A program made the position numbers and the translations under genes. Of a stretch of DNA of 64,000 nt, positions 7,226 through 32,554 are shown one piece after another (position 1 is the stretch's first letter; every line of letters begins with the position of its first letter). Under the pieces are notes generated by a model, which had not been told where the DNA came from, ran no database searches, and worked only from the letters and a program-made list of their open reading frames with translations. Origin of the DNA: Thalassomonas haliotis. Lineage in GTDB: Bacteria > Pseudomonadota > Gammaproteobacteria > Enterobacterales > Alteromonadaceae. The stretch covers positions 4,030,001 to 4,094,000 of the forward strand of contig NZ_CP059693.1 in assembly GCF_028657945.1 (NCBI RefSeq), read 5' to 3'.

Positions 7226-8287
7226 TTATTCTTGTTCGGGGATTTTCAGGCCCATTTTTTTCACCCTTTTGCGCCATAACTGCCTGGCCAGTTTTTGCAT
7301 ATCTTCGTCTTTGTCTCCTTCATCGACAATTTCGATACCCAAAATCGTTTCCATCAGATCTTCCAGGGTTAATATCCCTTCGACACTGCCATATTCATCC
7401 ACCGCCAGCATAATATGACTTTTGTGGCGGTTAAACTCGTCAAAAGCCTGCGACAGGGTCATGGAGCTTAATAAGGCCGGTATATGGCGGCAATAATCTT
7501 TAATCGGTTTATCGCTGTTTCCGCGCAACTGGGCCAGCAGGATATCGCTTCTGAGCACATAACCGATCACATTGTCCCGCTCCCCCTGATAGATAGGAAT
7601 ACGGGAAAAACGCTGATGACAGCATTTATAATAAAAACCGGCCACATCCAGGTTTTGGGGCAAAGAAAAAAGTACCGTTCTTGGGGTCATGGCATCCTTT
7701 ACCTGCAACTTTTTCAGCAACAAAATATTTTGCACCATCAGGGACTCGTAGGGCACCAGGTGGCCTTCTTTTTCACTGAGTTCAGCCATAGCGGCAAATT
7801 CTGAGCGGCTGAACCCGGTTAAAGTTTGCTCCTGGACTAAACCTGAAGTGATTTTTTCTGAAAGTTTGACAAAAGGGTATAACAGCCAGATCAACCAGTG
7901 AAGGCAGTGGGCGGTGATCGGCGCCAATTGCTTCCAATAGTGGGCGCCTAACGTTTTAGGAATAATCTCAGAAAAAATCAGGATAAGTAAGGTCAGTATT
8001 GCAGAAATAATACCCAGATAAGCGTCACCGAAAATCTTGGTTGCCTGAGAACCCGCTCCTGCTGCGCCAACGGTATGGGCTATGGTATTTAACGTTAAAA
8101 TGGCCGCCAGCGGTTTATTTATTTCCCCTTTAAGACGCGCCAGGATAGTCCCTGAGCTTTTCCCCTCTTGCTGTAAAATGGCAACATGGGCGGAGGTTAC
8201 ACTCAAAATCACGGCTTCGGCAATTGAGCATAAAAAAGAAAACAACAAAGCAATAGAGATAAAAACAATTAATAGCAACATTATCAT
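7226..8287 (-). CDS. CNNM-type (DUF21) membrane protein with CBS domains
   Basis: A 353-aa protein with an N-terminal CNNM transmembrane domain (about residues 1-170: several hydrophobic helices, with the conserved FSEIIPKTLGAHY motif near 105-118). A CBS pair follows (about 195-330), with the family signature DAMTPRTVLFSLP and, in the second CBS, MLAVDEYGSVEGILTLEDLMETILG. CNNM/CorB-type proteins are linked to Mg2+ or Co2+ efflux and resistance. The usual CorC_HlyC domain at the C-terminus is missing; the chain ends soon after the CBS pair, as in short family members. Confidence 0.85.
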   Translation of the reverse strand: MIMLLLIVFISIALLFSFLCSIAEAVILSVTSAHVAILQQEGKSSGTILARLKGEINKPLAAILTLNTIAHTVGAAGAGSQATKIFGDAYLGIISAILTLLILIFSEIIPKTLGAHYWKQLAPITAHCLHWLIWLLYPFVKLSEKITSGLVQEQTLTGFSRSEFAAMAELSEKEGHLVPYESLMVQNILLLKKLQVKDAMTPRTVLFSLPQNLDVAGFYYKCCHQRFSRIPIYQGERDNVIGYVLRSDILLAQLRGNSDKPIKDYCRHIPALLSSMTLSQAFDEFNRHKSHIMLAVDEYGSVEGILTLEDLMETILGIEIVDEGDKDEDMQKLARQLWRKRVKKMGLKIPEQE

Positions 8288-26095: not shown

Positions 26096-26157
26096 ACAGC
26101 ATGGTGAGTTAGTTATGTTTTTTTAGCGAAATTAATTGCAACGTTTCACCATGCTGT
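26096..26157. repeat. 12-bp perfect inverted repeat after the regulator gene
   Basis: ACAGCATGGTGA (26096-26107) and TCACCATGCTGT (26146-26157) are exact reverse complements around 38 bases that include a seven-T run. It may terminate the regulator transcript or mark the edge of the accessory island. Confidence 0.6.
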
Positions 26158-26170
26158 TCAACGCCAATTA

Positions 26171-27142
26171 ATGGGTGTCCAGTTCTGTCTCTATATGAAC
26201 GGGCGGGTTTATGATTATAATGTTGGCCGGTTTATGAGTGTGGATCCGTTTATTCAGGATCCTGGCAGTACCCAAAGTGTTAACCCGTATTCGTATATCA
26301 TGAATAACCCGCTGGCGGGGACAGATCCGACCGGCTATGCCTGTGAGAAGGCGGCTGGTACCCGGAGTATTTGTCGTAATGATACGAATGTAAAAAATAC
26401 CAATGTTGAGAATGTAAAAAGTATCGAAGTTTCAGGCTCTGGTAATAGCCGTAGCGTTAAGGTCAATTTGAACAATGGCGCCAGTTATAGTCAGAAGTTT
26501 ACTAAAACGCAGGAGATTGGTAGTGTTAGTAATATTGCTAAGAATGCTAATGAGATTAATGGTACCAGTGGAAGAAGCCCTAACCTAAATGATTATATTG
26601 CAGGTTTTAAAGAGCTTTGGAATAACGCATCTGATTATGTGCCAGATATATTTCAAAATGCCTCTGATGTCATGTCAGAAAACCTCGGAGGAGTGGTTTC
26701 TTCCGAGACGATAATGACTGGTGCAGAAGGCCTAAGTGATGGCATTGTTGCAATGTCTCAGGGGAATCTTTCTGGCCTGTCAAATGCAGCAGTATCGGTT
26801 GTTGCTGGTAGGGTGCCATTTGGCAAGAAAATCAAATCGCAAGTTGATGATTTACTATCAGGCAGTGAAGTGAGAGTAAAATCAATAAGAGAAGCTGACT
26901 CACTCCTTAGGAGTGCATTACCGAATGCTGTAAAGGTCAAGGGTGCAGGTCCAAGCACTGGGCTTCCAAGCTCAGGAGGATGGAAAGGTAAGAATCCTAA
27001 TGGTATGTATAAAAAAGACTATTTAATAGATAAGTCAACTGGAAGGGTGTATGGGCATGGGCCTAATAACGCTCATGCACACAACAAACACATTAATATC
27101 AAATTGCCTTCAGGCAAGAAAACGACAATTGTGATTAATTAA
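26171..27142 (+). CDS. orphan Rhs C-terminal toxin fragment
   Basis: A 323-aa frame whose first 45 or so residues are the end of an Rhs core (YMNGRVYDYNVGRFMSVDPF, NPYSYIMNNPLAGTDPTGY), the conserved junction after which the variable toxin begins. The long N-terminal Rhs shell is absent, so this is an orphan tip, not a full rhs gene; residues 1-7 come from the inverted-repeat boundary. The toxin end has a basic, His-rich block (YKKDYLIDKSTGRVYGHG, NNAHAHNKHINIKL, TTIVIN) suggesting a nuclease, but I cannot name the family. The ATG at 26171 has no good ribosome site. An immunity-like gene follows after one base. Confidence 0.7.
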   Translation: MGVQFCLYMNGRVYDYNVGRFMSVDPFIQDPGSTQSVNPYSYIMNNPLAGTDPTGYACEKAAGTRSICRNDTNVKNTNVENVKSIEVSGSGNSRSVKVNLNNGASYSQKFTKTQEIGSVSNIAKNANEINGTSGRSPNLNDYIAGFKELWNNASDYVPDIFQNASDVMSENLGGVVSSETIMTGAEGLSDGIVAMSQGNLSGLSNAAVSVVAGRVPFGKKIKSQVDDLLSGSEVRVKSIREADSLLRSALPNAVKVKGAGPSTGLPSSGGWKGKNPNGMYKKDYLIDKSTGRVYGHGPNNAHAHNKHINIKLPSGKKTTIVIN

Positions 27143-27143
27143 A

Positions 27144-27401
27144 ATGAATATCGAAAAATTTACGAAAAAGGTAGTTCATGGTGATGGTGCTCAATGGAAT
27201 TATGCTGTTGATAAAACGGAAGGGCTAGTTTCTGTCTGGGTTCATGGGGGGGATTTTATTTTAACTTGGGAAGAATACCCAGAAGGCTCTTTTCACGATG
27301 AATCGGAGTACATAAAAGACGAGCATCATCAATTCAATAGTTTAAATGAATTGCTTTCATTCATGGATAAGAATGCCATACCTTTGTCGGGGTTTAAGTA
27401 G
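27144..27401 (+). CDS. putative immunity protein for the Rhs tip toxin
   Basis: An 85-aa acidic, soluble protein (VHGGDFILTWEEYPEGSFHDESEYIKDEHHQFNSLNELLSF) starting one base after the toxin stop. An acidic partner next to a basic toxin tip is the normal immunity arrangement in Rhs systems. No Imm family is recognised. The downstream sequence to 27430 has a small CCCG/CGGG hairpin (GGCCCGTAAATACGGGCC with TATTTTTATT after it) that should terminate the transcript. Confidence 0.65.
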   Translation: MNIEKFTKKVVHGDGAQWNYAVDKTEGLVSVWVHGGDFILTWEEYPEGSFHDESEYIKDEHHQFNSLNELLSFMDKNAIPLSGFK

Positions 27402-27403
27402 AG

Positions 27404-27437
27404 GATATGGCCCGTAAATACGGGCCGTATTTTTATT
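27404..27437 (+). terminator. terminator after the immunity gene
   Basis: GGCCCGTA, short loop, TACGGGCC, followed by GTATTTTTATT, right after the immunity stop. The stem is perfect and the T-rich tail is canonical. Confidence 0.7.
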
Positions 27438-27579
27438 ACTGGTGTACAAGGATACCGGAGAGAGTGTACAAGAACATCCATCTTAAACTGGTGCAGATCT
27501 GGACACCCAAAAACTAGCGAAAGCAAAAAACTGAACTACTTTTACTCCATGGCTTTTTCTACTTGCTGTGGAGTAAATA

Positions 27580-28578
27580 ATGACTCCAGCCCGCCGCTCT
27601 CAAATTTCCCTGATTGACACCTGTTATTACCACTTAACTTCCCGCTGTATTCGCCGTGCTTACCTTTGTGGCCGGGATGAATATAGCAATCGCAATTATG
27701 AGCACCGGCGCCAATGGTTGGTTGACCGCATTCGCTTTTTAACGTCAGTATTTGCCATTGATGTCGCTGCTTATGCGGTAATGTCTAATCATTATCATCT
27801 GGTGGTTCATGTGAATGAGCCTGAAGCACAGGGCTGGACAAATGAAGAAGTTTGCCAGCGCTGGCTGCAGTTATATACGAATCATCCTTTGGTAGAGCGT
27901 TGGCAAACTGGAGCCACGATCTCGGCAGCGGAAAACGAAGCAGCATTAGCTATCATAGATGAATGGCGTGACAGGCTCAGTGATATATCCTGGCTGATGC
28001 GCTGTCTCAATGAATATATTGCCCGTAAAGCAAATAAGGAAGATAACTGCCAGGGCCGATTCTGGGAAGGACGGTTTAAGTCCCAGGCTTTGTTAGATGA
28101 AAAGGCACTGCTGGCTTGCATGGCTTATGTTGAGTTAAATCCAATACGGGCAAAAATGGCCAGTAGTGTTCAAGACTCGGAATATACCTCAGCCTATGAA
28201 CGGGCACATAATAAAGCCAGTAAGCAAGATAACCCTGATGACCTGCCGTTTAAGGTTAAACCTTTGCTGGGTTTTATTGGGTATGAGCATCAGGGACAAC
28301 CGTGCGGCATTGCTTTCTCACTACTTGATTATTTTGAGTTGATTGAAGAAACCGGCAAAATTATTAGGGAAGATAAACGCGGTTACATTGATGAAAAGCA
28401 ATTCCCCATCTTGCAGCAACTAGGCTTTTCCGGGGATGACTGGCTGGGTTTAGCACAGCACTTTGGTAAAAAATATCATAGAGCCGTTGGCTCATTGGCT
28501 GAGCTAACTCGTTTTGCTGCCCATATGAAGAAAAAATGGATTGGCGGGCAAAGGCAGCAGGCCTGTATCTTTCACTAA
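27580..28578 (+). CDS. RAYT / IS200-like REP-associated tyrosine transposase
   Basis: A 332-aa HUH-type transposase. The HxH metal-binding motif sits in YAVMSNHYHLVVHV (about residues 66-79) and the catalytic tyrosine in LLACMAYVELNPIRAKM (about 186), the RAYT signature (Y-x-x-x-N-P). The helical C-terminus (GFSGDDWLGLAQHFGKKYHRAVGS) is the extension found in large marine RAYTs. Such enzymes act on short palindromic REP sequences and usually occur as single copies. The many GGACACCC/GATGTCCCC-type repeats in this island are its probable substrates; that link is inferred. Confidence 0.85.
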   Translation: MTPARRSQISLIDTCYYHLTSRCIRRAYLCGRDEYSNRNYEHRRQWLVDRIRFLTSVFAIDVAAYAVMSNHYHLVVHVNEPEAQGWTNEEVCQRWLQLYTNHPLVERWQTGATISAAENEAALAIIDEWRDRLSDISWLMRCLNEYIARKANKEDNCQGRFWEGRFKSQALLDEKALLACMAYVELNPIRAKMASSVQDSEYTSAYERAHNKASKQDNPDDLPFKVKPLLGFIGYEHQGQPCGIAFSLLDYFELIEETGKIIREDKRGYIDEKQFPILQQLGFSGDDWLGLAQHFGKKYHRAVGSLAELTRFAAHMKKKWIGGQRQQACIFH

Positions 28579-28675: not shown

Positions 28676-29104
28676 TTAGTTTGAGTAAGTTAATTCCCAC
28701 TGCTTTTTATAGTTTGTGTGATATTTTCGTGGTGTGAAAATAAGTTTATGGATGTCCCCGCTTGCCTGCCAAAATAAGTTTATGGATGTCCCCGCTTGCC
28801 TGTTCGGTCGAACCCACACCTTAACTTTATAAATGCCTTTAATTTCATTCGGCATTAACCTGTGGCACTTTTGATATAAGCGTTTGATAATACGATAAGT
28901 GTGTAAGGAAGTGATTAACCATAAACTACTAAAAACGATAGCAAAGGCGATAATGAAGATTTTAAAATCGCCACTGTTATTGAGCTGGGCTGCCGCCAGT
29001 AAAACTGAATTGAGAGTGAGAAAAATCCCGGTTCTTAACAGCAGTAAACTGTCTTCTTTATCCCACCTTTCTCTGATTAATGCATACTTTTCCCGATAAT
29101 GCAT
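28676..29104 (-). CDS. two-helix membrane protein, C-terminus reshaped by repeats
   Basis: A 142-aa frame starting MHYREKYALIRERWDKEDSLL, with two hydrophobic helices (about 23-42 and 46-66) and a basic loop after them. The last 45 or so residues are encoded by two 32-base direct repeats, so the natural end is probably altered: a 34-base unit shifts the frame. A membrane protein of the small 2TM type is plausible, but no family is recognised. Confidence 0.5.
   Translation of the reverse strand: MHYREKYALIRERWDKEDSLLLLRTGIFLTLNSVLLAAAQLNNSGDFKIFIIAFAIVFSSLWLITSLHTYRIIKRLYQKCHRLMPNEIKGIYKVKVWVRPNRQAGTSINLFWQASGDIHKLIFTPRKYHTNYKKQWELTYSN
28737..28802. repeat. two exact 32-bp direct repeats, REP-like
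   Basis: The unit (28737-28768 and 28771-28802, two bases apart) contains AAGTTTATGGATGTCCCCGC. GGATGTCCCC resembles the GGACACCC motif at other sites in the island. The copies lie inside the minus-strand ORF. Confidence 0.85.
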
Positions 29105-29209
29105 AATAAGTCTCCGCTGTCGTACCCCGGCTACCTATGTATTAGTCTGCATTGGCGCTTAATTCAACTCCATGGGCCTTGGCAGATATTCCCTTAACCA
29201 TATAACAAA

Positions 29210-29237
29210 GCTGGCCCCCCATTAATTGGCGATATCT
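29210..29237 (+). repeat. dispersed 28-bp repeat, copy A
   Basis: Identical to 32527-32554. The core CCCATTAATTGGCG also occurs inverted at 26162-26175, on the left edge of the Rhs cassette, with CTGGACA replacing CTGGCCC before it. These look like ends recognised by one recombinase or transposase. Confidence 0.8.
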
Positions 29238-29542: not shown

Positions 29543-29701
29543 TATGGCTATGGCTATGGCTATGGCTATGGCTATGGCTATGGCTATGGCTATGGCTATG
29601 GTTATGGTTATGGTTATGGTTATGGTTATGGTTATGGTTATGGTTATGGTTATGGTTATGGTTATGGTTATGGTTATGGTTATGGTTATGGTTATGGTTA
29701 T
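29543..29701 (+). repeat. hexanucleotide microsatellite, 9 TATGGC then 17 TATGGT units
   Basis: Twenty-six perfect six-base units, the first nine TATGGC and the next seventeen TATGGT, ending in TAT. It begins six bases after the stop of the chitin-binding remnant. One reading gives a Tyr-Gly polymer in an unlikely 64-codon ORF that starts at a TTG. Slippage would make the length variable. Confidence 0.95.
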
Positions 29702-29918
29702 GTAACTTTAAAATAACCTAAGCGATTAATTTAACGTTGAAACTTTTCCTATTAGCCAAATTTTTTAACAAGTTTTGGCCATGAATAATTGTTTTAATTG
29801 CGTTAAATCAAGGTTAATTGAAATTTAACCATAATCGTCTATCAAAAACATATTAATATCATCGAGCCATCAATATATATGGCTTTTTGTAAACTAATTT
29901 AATAAAGGATTATAAATG

Positions 29919-31454: not shown

Positions 31455-31476
31455 TACGCAAGCACGGACACCCAAA

Positions 31477-31525
31477 CCTTAGTAAATATGAAAAGCTGTC
31501 ATAGGCATAATTCAATTTTTGGCTG
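31477..31525 (+). repeat. direct repeat left of symE (partner at 32226-32273)
   Basis: About 43 of 50 positions match 32226-32273 (CCTTRGTAARTATGAAAA, TAGGCATA, TTCAATT, TTGGCTG). The pair flanks the whole symE locus in the same orientation. Confidence 0.7.
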
Positions 31526-31628
31526 GCTTTGCCCGGCTTTGCTCATACAAAGCTTACCCTGGTAATCTCCAAAAAAGCAATTGAATCAACGCTTTGACTG
31601 CACAGAACAAAAACATCAAATTTACTTT

Positions 31629-31673
31629 AAAAAAAGACCAATTCACCATTGATTTCCCCGCAAATTGGTCTTT
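31629..31673 (-). terminator. terminator facing away from symE on the antisense strand
   Basis: On the minus strand, AAAGACCAATT and AATTGGTCTTT form a perfect 11-bp stem followed directly by seven T. It would end a transcript that starts in or near the symE leader and runs opposite to symE, the position expected for a SymR-type antisense RNA of about 200 nt. Confidence 0.55.
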
Positions 31674-31791
31674 CCTTAATAGTGCTAACCAAGTCTAAAC
31701 GGATAGCATTTATTACAACACTTCCATCAATCAATGAACTGCTGTAATAACAACCGTTACTACCAAAACAAAAGTAGTAACTTAAATCGCA

Positions 31792-31852
31792 ACCCCTGAG
31801 TGCCGATACACCCAGAGGTCGCTAACCACCACGAACTCTCAAGGAGTACGTC
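31792..31852 (+). promoter_or_regulatory. SymE leader, copy 2
   Basis: Conserved with the leader at 3635-3695, including the small CTGAGTG/CACCCAG stem (31796-31815) and the AAGGAGT ribosome site eight bases before the ATG. Both leaders continue into the codons ATG GCT AAA. Confidence 0.55.
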
Positions 31853-32137
31853 ATGGCTAAATATCATCATACGCCAGAGCCAGTCTCGGCAAAAGTAAAA
31901 TATCCTATTTATCGGCAACTTACCGTGCAGGAAACGGTTTGCACCACAGCGTCGAAAACCCGCGGCATCGGGATTAACTATGTTCCCGTCAAGCTTGAGC
32001 CTTGTGTCGTGCTCAGGGGAAAATGGCTGCGCCTGGCCGGTTTCCCTGTCGGGCAAAAACTCTGTATTGTTGTCAATCAGGCAGAGCTGGTGATCACGCC
32101 TACACAAACGGAGCCAACCCCGTCCGCTGAAAACTAA
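31853..32137 (+). CDS. symE: SymE-family toxin
   Basis: A 94-aa protein. Residues about 45-80 (PCVVLRGKWLRLAGFPVGQK, then LCIVVNQAELVIT) match the AbrB-like hairpin of SymE: L-x-G-x-W-L-x-x-A-G-F-x-x-G-x-x-V-x-V and L-V-I-T. E. coli SymE is SOS-induced, is reported to compact the nucleoid or cleave RNA, and is silenced by the antisense RNA SymR. The N-terminal 40 residues are variable and polar. It lies between two imperfect direct repeats, as in a small cassette, and an antisense-strand terminator lies just upstream. I saw no LexA box. Confidence 0.8.
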   Translation: MAKYHHTPEPVSAKVKYPIYRQLTVQETVCTTASKTRGIGINYVPVKLEPCVVLRGKWLRLAGFPVGQKLCIVVNQAELVITPTQTEPTPSAEN

Positions 32138-32225
32138 CCCGGGCTTAATTGAAAAGCCATAAGCTAAGCTGCTGTATTTAAAGCCGGTACAGCAGCTTTA
32201 TCTCACGTGAATCGCCCGCTCAACA

Positions 32226-32273
32226 CCTTGGTAAGTATGAAAACTGTTTTAGGCATATTTCAATTGTTGGCTG
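32226..32273 (+). repeat. direct repeat right of symE
   Basis: Partner of 31477-31525; see that entry for the matching bases. Confidence 0.7.
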
Positions 32274-32307
32274 TCCGGCTTTTCAGCCTACTGATTTTAT
32301 GGCGACG

Positions 32308-32364
32308 AAAACAGAGTTCAGCCAGAGTGCTGATATTATGCAAACCCGCTCACAGGACAATTAA
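32308..32364 (+). pseudogene. C-terminal scrap of a winged-helix/TolB regulator paralogue
   Basis: The frame ends TKTEFSQSADIMQTRSQDN and a stop; the regulator at 23792-26071 ends LVRQGADIMQTRSPGS and a stop. The underlying DNA is also alike (GATATYATGCAAACCCGCTC). The rest of the gene is gone. Confidence 0.55.
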
Positions 32365-32526
32365 TGACTTGCTATAACCTTAGTGGCACTGATTCGGATC
32401 ACCATCCGCATTTGCTCTGGCCGCCTGATTAAGACAGGGATCATATTTTTGATACAGGTGTTCCAACCTGGAAAGATGCAATAATTCAAGGCATTTCAAA
32501 CTTTGCATTTGTCCCCCCTTAGCAGG

Positions 32527-32554
32527 GCTGGCCCCCCATTAATTGGCGATATCT
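32527..32554 (+). repeat. dispersed 28-bp repeat, copy B
   Basis: Identical to 29210-29237, same orientation, about 3.3 kb apart. The pair brackets the segment from the chitin-binding remnant to symE. Confidence 0.8.

Follow-up and report, generated by a model that had tools for sequence, protein, structure and literature searches.

The window analyzed here is a stretch of 64,000 nt from Thalassomonas haliotis (NZ_CP059693.1, positions 4,030,001-4,094,000, forward strand), and all coordinates are relative to its first base. It contains a segment in which the truncated end of an Rhs core, a toxin-like tip and a small gene in the place of an immunity gene are enclosed by two inverted 16-bp sequences and followed, on the same strand, by a transposase gene of the RAYT class (REP-associated tyrosine transposase, or TnpA-REP, REP being a repetitive extragenic palindromic sequence) (Table 1). 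A preliminary description of the locus proposed that this segment is an orphan cassette, with ends of its own, that moves as a unit. The bracketing sequences prove to be of the kind that flanks RAYT genes, and RAYT elements recur behind Rhs modules in other genomes; we read the toxin-immunity module as having been gained at RAYT-type ends, a gain in which the ends or the enzyme would have had a part.

The content of the segment is as described. The core end matches TIGR03696 (positions 31-75, E 6.6e-12), and the succession of truncated core, DPxG boundary, tip and small open reading frame (ORF) is that of a putative orphan Rhs module. Other Rhs proteins mostly align from residue 7 of the tip ORF onward, and a single base separates the left 16-mer from the beginning of Rhs homology. 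No other Rhs core was found within the window, the nearest on the chromosome lying about 600 kb away, so that the module is indeed not contiguous with a full rhs gene. The tip has no accepted match in Pfam or NCBIfam and none better than E 0.16 among PDB sequences; plasmids gave no match either. The 85-aa ORF likewise has no accepted match among families or PDB sequences. Among 58 other genomes, none of the matches listed for the 323-aa tip ORF passes residue 215.

The inverted pair is real. TGGGTGTCCAGTTCTG occupies 26172-26187 on the forward strand and its inverted copy 27494-27509, with one mismatch (15 of 16 positions, as the preliminary description had it), and without gaps the inverted similarity can be followed over 26 bp (26162-26187 and 27494-27519, 81%). 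When the window was shuffled, at least two matches with no more than three mismatches arose in 3 of 100 shuffles. In the 6.45-Mb chromosome the search pattern TGGGTGTCCAGNTCTG, which is the 16-mer with one position left free, occurs at 12 places when up to two mismatches are allowed, compared with 8 for a reversed-pattern control; only the two arms match without mismatch, and the ten others carry two. The RAYT gene also begins where it had been placed, 70 bp past the right arm, with an ATG at 27580.

Table 1. Features of the bracketed segment and its surroundings (window coordinates)
Feature	Position	Strand	Remarks
Insertion sequence (IS) remnant	26098..26161	+	truncated terminal piece, ending at the left bracket; also present at the orthologous G002 site
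Left end sequence	26162..26187	-	holds the 16 bp at 26172-26187; provides ATG 26171 of the tip ORF; solo near-copy in G003
Core remnant and toxin-like tip ORF	26171..27142	+	323 aa; His-rich C-terminus
Rhs core remnant	26189..26340	+	homology from LYMNGRVYDYN to DPTGY (right limit by eye)
Presumed immunity gene	27144..27401	+	85 aa; called from position only
R end	27494..27519	+	5' end of the RAYT element, holding the right 16 bp; in related RAYTs most often 60-80 bp ahead of the start codon
RAYT / TnpA-REP gene	27580..28578	+	332 aa; HuH-to-Y distance 110; subclass 2.3-like
F ends of RAYT element	28749..28791	+	TGGATGTCC; two tandem copies 34 bp apart, at 28749 and 28783
8xMP-like membrane protein gene, N-terminal part	28803..29193	-	end facing the RAYT missing; 28.3 bits against Pfam 8xMP, under the cut-off of 30
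Solo RAYT-type end	29205..29231	+	similar to the left bracket in inverted form (85% of 27 bp); another copy at about 32520-32548

The bracketing sequences as RAYT-type ends

The transposase scores below the cut-offs of both NCBIfam NF047646 (E 3.1e-13, 49.8 bits; cut-off 80) and Pfam Y1_Tnp (20.4 bits; cut-off 23), and carries the NHYH and YVELNP motifs that characterize RAYT/TnpA-REP proteins in general (Y1 HUH, Y---NP). On its length and HuH-to-Y spacing, rather than on tree placement, we file the element provisionally as subclass 2.3-like with ends of the terminal inverted repeat (TIR) type. From the best 80 of 250 loci with RAYT relatives a short end motif was derived, G[ACG]CA[CGT]CCA, designated R, its reverse complement being F, and the ends were counted around 137 distinct full-length RAYT copies (those of the 80 loci plus those from the genomes searched below). 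In 94 of 135 copies R is present in the 200 bp upstream of the RAYT gene, most often 60-80 bp ahead of the start codon; in 91 of 132, F is present in the 400 bp downstream, most often about 200 bp past the stop. Because the motif was picked after the sequences had been viewed, its wrong orientation served as control, and was found around the same copies 4 times upstream and 4 times downstream.

The right arm sits where related RAYTs carry R, which identifies it as the 5' (R) end of the resident RAYT element, extending from 27494 to about 28790. The left bracket is a solo RAYT-type end, for which F-type and inverted R-type are indistinguishable. The idea of private cassette ends had therefore to be rejected, the right arm being placed as in related RAYTs that have no Rhs cargo: inverted ends do stand at both edges of the segment, but they belong to the RAYT class and are not specific to the tip. 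The proposed comparison with related genomes gave a similarly divided result. The order F-[core remnant, tip, immunity]-R recurs in G011, a genome of another genus, but the ends also occur without such cargo: sequences nearly identical to the left arm (23 of 24 bp) and to the right arm (20 of 21 bp) lie on one contig of the sister species G003 that yielded no Rhs core when searched, which is in part the result that the preliminary description had named as refuting it.

The end family is small, with 12 sites in the T. haliotis genome as against 3 for a control pattern, 22 against 1 in G002, 26 against 4 in G003 and 12 against 3 in G001. Its consensus contains no GTAG, and with 12 sites in its own genome it does not have the character of classical REP/REPIN sequences, which are high-copy palindromes with a GTAG head. 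As a separate observation, RAYT ends are often duplicated in tandem together with neighboring bases (at least two R in 17 of 91, at least two F in 32 of 91; examples are L034 3890-3930, L234, reversed, 7456-7790, and 28737-28802 in the window), and such duplication may be a mark of enzyme action.

The abundance of solo ends raises the question of coincidence, in which a RAYT element and a separate solo end would happen to flank a tip displaced long ago, in a rearranged region that tolerates insertions. Other solo ends lie near 53 of 93 RAYT loci (a tally that includes two loci twice, L032 coinciding with L252 and L034 with L250), F...R pairs near other RAYTs also enclose non-Rhs genes, as in L056, and two more solo ends are present within the window. 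The left edge of the segment speaks against such a coincidence. The IS remnant to its left, presumably IS5-like, has eight other copies in the genome (seven at 81% and one at 90%), and when the window is compared with G002 and with two of the IS copies the similarity ends at GTTCAA and the left end sequence starts abruptly at 26162. The foreign segment therefore begins exactly at the outer edge of the left end. A tip inserted between two full RAYT copies can be dismissed as well, the left neighbor of the left end being an IS remnant and not a RAYT remnant.

The sister genomes outline the history of the site. In G001, the upstream regulator gene and an 8xMP-like gene lie tail to tail, 22 bp apart, with no insert; because the RAYT and the IS remnant are missing here too, the site cannot count as a clean empty site for the segment by itself. 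G002 has the same regulator and the same IS remnant, then a 292-aa ORF, an orthologous RAYT fragment that covers the final two fifths of the gene (91% DNA identity to the window RAYT), and other genes; no Rhs core was found at this site. Since the RAYT is common to G002, the R end would be the natural right border of the segment, with the proviso that the G002 fragment has lost the 5' part of the RAYT. In G003, the regulator is followed by another ORF, the contig ending about 850 bp past the regulator so that the site is only partly visible. The tip was not found in any of the three genomes, where no match to the tip protein reaches past the core and the adjoining part.

These comparisons bear on the preliminary proposal, which in its explicit form would make the tip-immunity segment a non-autonomous element with two RAYT-type ends, moved in trans by the RAYT. 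The right kind of inverted ends at both edges, the same order in G011 and the coincidence of the left edge with the boundary of foreign sequence all fit such an element. The right end, in contrast, belongs to the resident RAYT and is placed as in RAYTs without Rhs cargo, and the ends occur singly without an Rhs core in G003. Furthermore, no second copy of the bracketed segment was found in its own genome and no relative of the tip in the relatives searched, the excision product was not detected, and the related genomes compared showed neither an empty site with a single end sequence, which the preliminary description had suggested looking for, nor an empty site beside a filled one. The notion of a cassette moving as a unit is thus only partly supported, and we consider transposition of the segment by this route improbable, the least credible of the explanations discussed here.

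RAYT elements behind Rhs modules in other genomes

To place the window in context, RAYT proteins and the Rhs core family were searched in 41 genomes, 35 from the same genus or family and six from the same order, the latter picked for having Rhs hits. After omission of 10 short RAYT pieces (2 in loci already counted and 8 more than 5 kb from any core) and of 6 core matches below the curated cut-off, 96 of 106 RAYT rows and 136 of 142 core rows were used. The class is present in 19 of the 41 genomes, with 1 to 12 merged loci in each positive genome and 4 in T. haliotis. Sixteen of the 86 merged RAYT loci lie within 5 kb of an Rhs core, where 0.86 would be expected under uniform placement, and 13 lie within 2.5 kb (0.43 expected). 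All 16, from 9 genomes, are at the 3' side of the core, 15 of them on the same strand. As a control, IS110 elements (PF02371) in the same genomes have 1 of 79 hits within 5 kb of an Rhs core, and that one on the 5' side (Fisher test, p = 1.7e-4). In the motif scan of the best 80 of 250 loci, L054, L055, L064 and L083 have Rhs core signatures upstream of the RAYT and in its orientation, L087 and L111 downstream and in the opposite one; a further hit, inside the RAYT of L035, was spurious. On a tree of 60 RAYT proteins the proximity to Rhs requires 7 or 8 changes, and well supported branches force at least five of these. Some clustering of the label persists, since a number of the loci represent one rhs locus in sister species. 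The association of RAYT elements with Rhs modules is thus recurrent and directional. No publication linking RAYT or TnpA-REP to Rhs modules was found among the open-licence full texts listed; a few that contain both words have titles on other topics.

Coincidence would account for this pattern by tolerance of insertions behind Rhs arrays combined with the settling of REP-like elements behind genes. REPs are indeed described as lying mainly downstream of genes (excerpts of PMC3733652), and RAYTs remote from Rhs have a co-directional ORF as their nearest upstream neighbor in 75 of 109 cases; orientation is therefore only partly special and its value as strong evidence is weakened. Against this stands the excess at the 3' sides of Rhs cores, about 19-fold over uniform placement and not common to IS110. 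A coincidental arrangement strikes us as doubtful, while being the strongest competitor of the reading that we prefer.

That reading draws on loci in which the modules themselves have changed. In G011, contig 7 carries, in this order, an Rhs tip, its immunity gene, R, a RAYT and a second tip with its immunity gene, the second tip having no core remnant (by eye). Next come an R-F mini element (about 65-70 bp) and an orphan tip, in which Rhs homology begins, shortly after the F end, with YDPTLGRF; its immunity gene and another R-F mini element follow. Two G011 contigs have cores that are 97.7% identical and RAYT starts that are 99.4% identical, the tips and immunity genes between them differ, and similarity resumes 7 bp before the R motif. 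One rhs locus common to T. haliotis, G002 and G003 shows a similar pattern: the three species have the core in common but not the tips and immunity genes, and their sequences are alike again from the R end. A truncated rhs copy in G002 has an R-type end directly before it and aligns, tip included, with the current Rhs protein of G003 (90% over 668 aa), the immunity genes of the two being 43% identical. An array in the same genome contains four immunity-like genes, two of them so called by position only; each has an R-type end at its 3' end, and one of these R-type ends overlaps the last bases of its gene. Solo R-type ends, counted on the strand of the module and outside the 600 bp preceding a RAYT piece, number 11 in 110.5 kb at the eight Rhs loci of the genus with a RAYT, 1 in 125.6 kb at the twenty Rhs loci without one, and 1 in 108.5 kb at the twelve RAYT loci without Rhs nearby, a group that includes L242 with an Rhs core about 10 kb off.

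The slot that holds core remnant, tip and immunity gene thus differs in content between sister species and is edged by RAYT-type ends. The explanation that we favor, at somewhat better than an even chance, is that this slot gains or swaps modules with the ends, or HUH breaks at them, serving as the right-hand joint. RAYT elements and their short derivatives would lodge behind tip-immunity modules; modules could then be added, swapped or cut off at the right-hand joint, either through homologous recombination between shared end sequences or through single-strand breaks and joining by the HUH enzyme at the ends, and the left joint would fall within the Rhs core. It is possible that the RAYT itself moves the module. 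In the most far-reaching version, subclass 2.3 TnpA-REP enzymes would drive Rhs tip exchange in Alteromonadales by moving the unit [core fragment, tip, immunity gene, R, RAYT, F]: mobilization would proceed one-ended, HUH style, from the RAYT end leftward past the element's own R end, and the unit would rejoin an Rhs core by homology, which would put the new tip in frame and leave the old one behind a RAYT-type end. The immunity-like arrays of G002 with their R ends, and the G011 tips punctuated by R-F mini elements, might be the footprint of such a process, which we nevertheless regard as unlikely.

Several observations weigh against the ends as a joint for module exchange. The resumption of similarity at R ends is also expected from independent insertions of the same element; the two RAYT loci of G016 share nothing except the element, and the RAYTs of G002 and G003 are only about 80% identical where the cores are 91% identical. 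The window and L112, as well as L232, have no solo R-type end of the common form. The near-Rhs loci are partly non-independent, some being the same rhs locus in sister species and two lying behind one G001 core, and the five closest relatives of the window RAYT are not near an Rhs core. Finally, a RAYT-type end stands at the junction in only 2 of about 15 orphan tips, plus the truncated copy in G002 (15 of 23 candidates having been accepted as real orphans by eye). A second orphan tip in the T. haliotis genome, in L112, was considered as a further example of the same bracket and set aside, as no RAYT-type end precedes it.

The orphan set displays a regularity of its own. In several genera, about 11 of the 15 orphan cores begin at nearly the same codons, Y/H-M-Q/N-A/G-R (by eye); they include L112 11747, L289 3964 (-), L290 3503, 4606, 5844 and 8939 (-), L291 3092 (-), L296 (-) and 26189 in the window. 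In L112, L289 and two of the L290 copies the sequence before the junction resembles an imperfect inverted copy of the core behind it, a fold-back that looks as if a specific break followed by a template switch had made these orphans. Insertion of a cassette at a single fixed core position was considered, about 11 of 15 cores starting within two codons of the same Met (by eye), but rejected, as the junctions beside RAYT-type ends vary in position.

Surroundings of the site

Beyond the RAYT element, the 8xMP-like gene, which encodes 244 aa in G002 and G003 and 252 aa in G001, is split in the window (28803-29231 and 32250-32548): its N-terminal part lies behind the RAYT and sequence matching its other end 3 kb further on, and both pieces adjoin copies of one solo end sequence. 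In G002, the orthologous site (L170 7275-10656) holds different cargo, including a gene with a start that we take to be of SIR2 type, and the site looks like a hotspot for variable genes. The stretch at about 31456-32282 of the window, with a small gene (a 94-aa ORF, 31853-32137) that is presumably SymE-like, is matched dozens of times across the four genomes of the genus, one match being located directly behind the RAYT in the Rhs array of G002 (by eye). A long TATGGC/TATGGT hexanucleotide array occupies 29543-29704 within a short frame.

Comparison with known systems

An IS-like element regularly situated behind Rhs tips is familiar from Escherichia coli, where the H-repeat belongs to Rhs elements; the window resembles that arrangement and differs from it in the transposase family. 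A close counterpart of the module itself is found in the orphan rhs-CT/immunity pairs and arrays described in excerpts of PMC3967940 and PMC5361080, where a core remnant with its tip and immunity gene likewise stands away from a full rhs gene and where displaced modules and arrays of immunity genes also occur. In those passages, the arrival of new tips and immunity genes behind conserved cores is ascribed to homologous or illegitimate recombination: orphan modules are said to resemble displaced fragments and to become fused to the main gene by homologous recombination (PMC3967940), and homology-facilitated illegitimate recombination has been proposed in a paper which states that evidence for an integrase-like helper is lacking (PMC5361080). 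Unlike in these accounts, a transposase class is here tied to the modules, strongly and directionally, and its ends mark module borders, which makes the question of a helper testable. The RAYT class is a possible helper in the swapping of bacterial weapons.

As to the transposase, rayt genes have been described as bordered by two inverted REPs (excerpts of PMC2817692), and two published groups approach the element in the window. TIRYTs (or TIRtrons) consist of a RAYT-like gene between TIRs, the arrangement also seen here, and their TIRs, with the motif GGGGWSAS, form dimers, clusters and small repeat families (excerpts of PMC3733652). That motif is only approached, by the GGGACACC form of the R end, the form in the window being TGGACACCC, and 20 of the 26 published TIRYTs fall in subclass 2.1 according to excerpts of PMC6006769. 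The second group, TnpA-REP subclass 2.3, is described in the same excerpts as RAYT-like proteins prevalent in Alteromonadales with a median length of 325 aa and a median HuH-to-Y distance of 110, present in more than five diverged copies per genome. The protein in the window, with 332 aa and a distance of 110, is close to the first of these medians and equal to the second; as to copy number, the 1 to 12 merged loci in each of the 19 positive genomes, 4 of them in T. haliotis, span the stated figure. The published subclass is described as having no identifiable REP-like secondary structures beside the gene, and those passages do not mention an association with Rhs; the class found in the window has short inverted ends at a fixed distance on both sides. 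Subclass 2.3 would thereby gain a candidate recognition sequence and a possible role.
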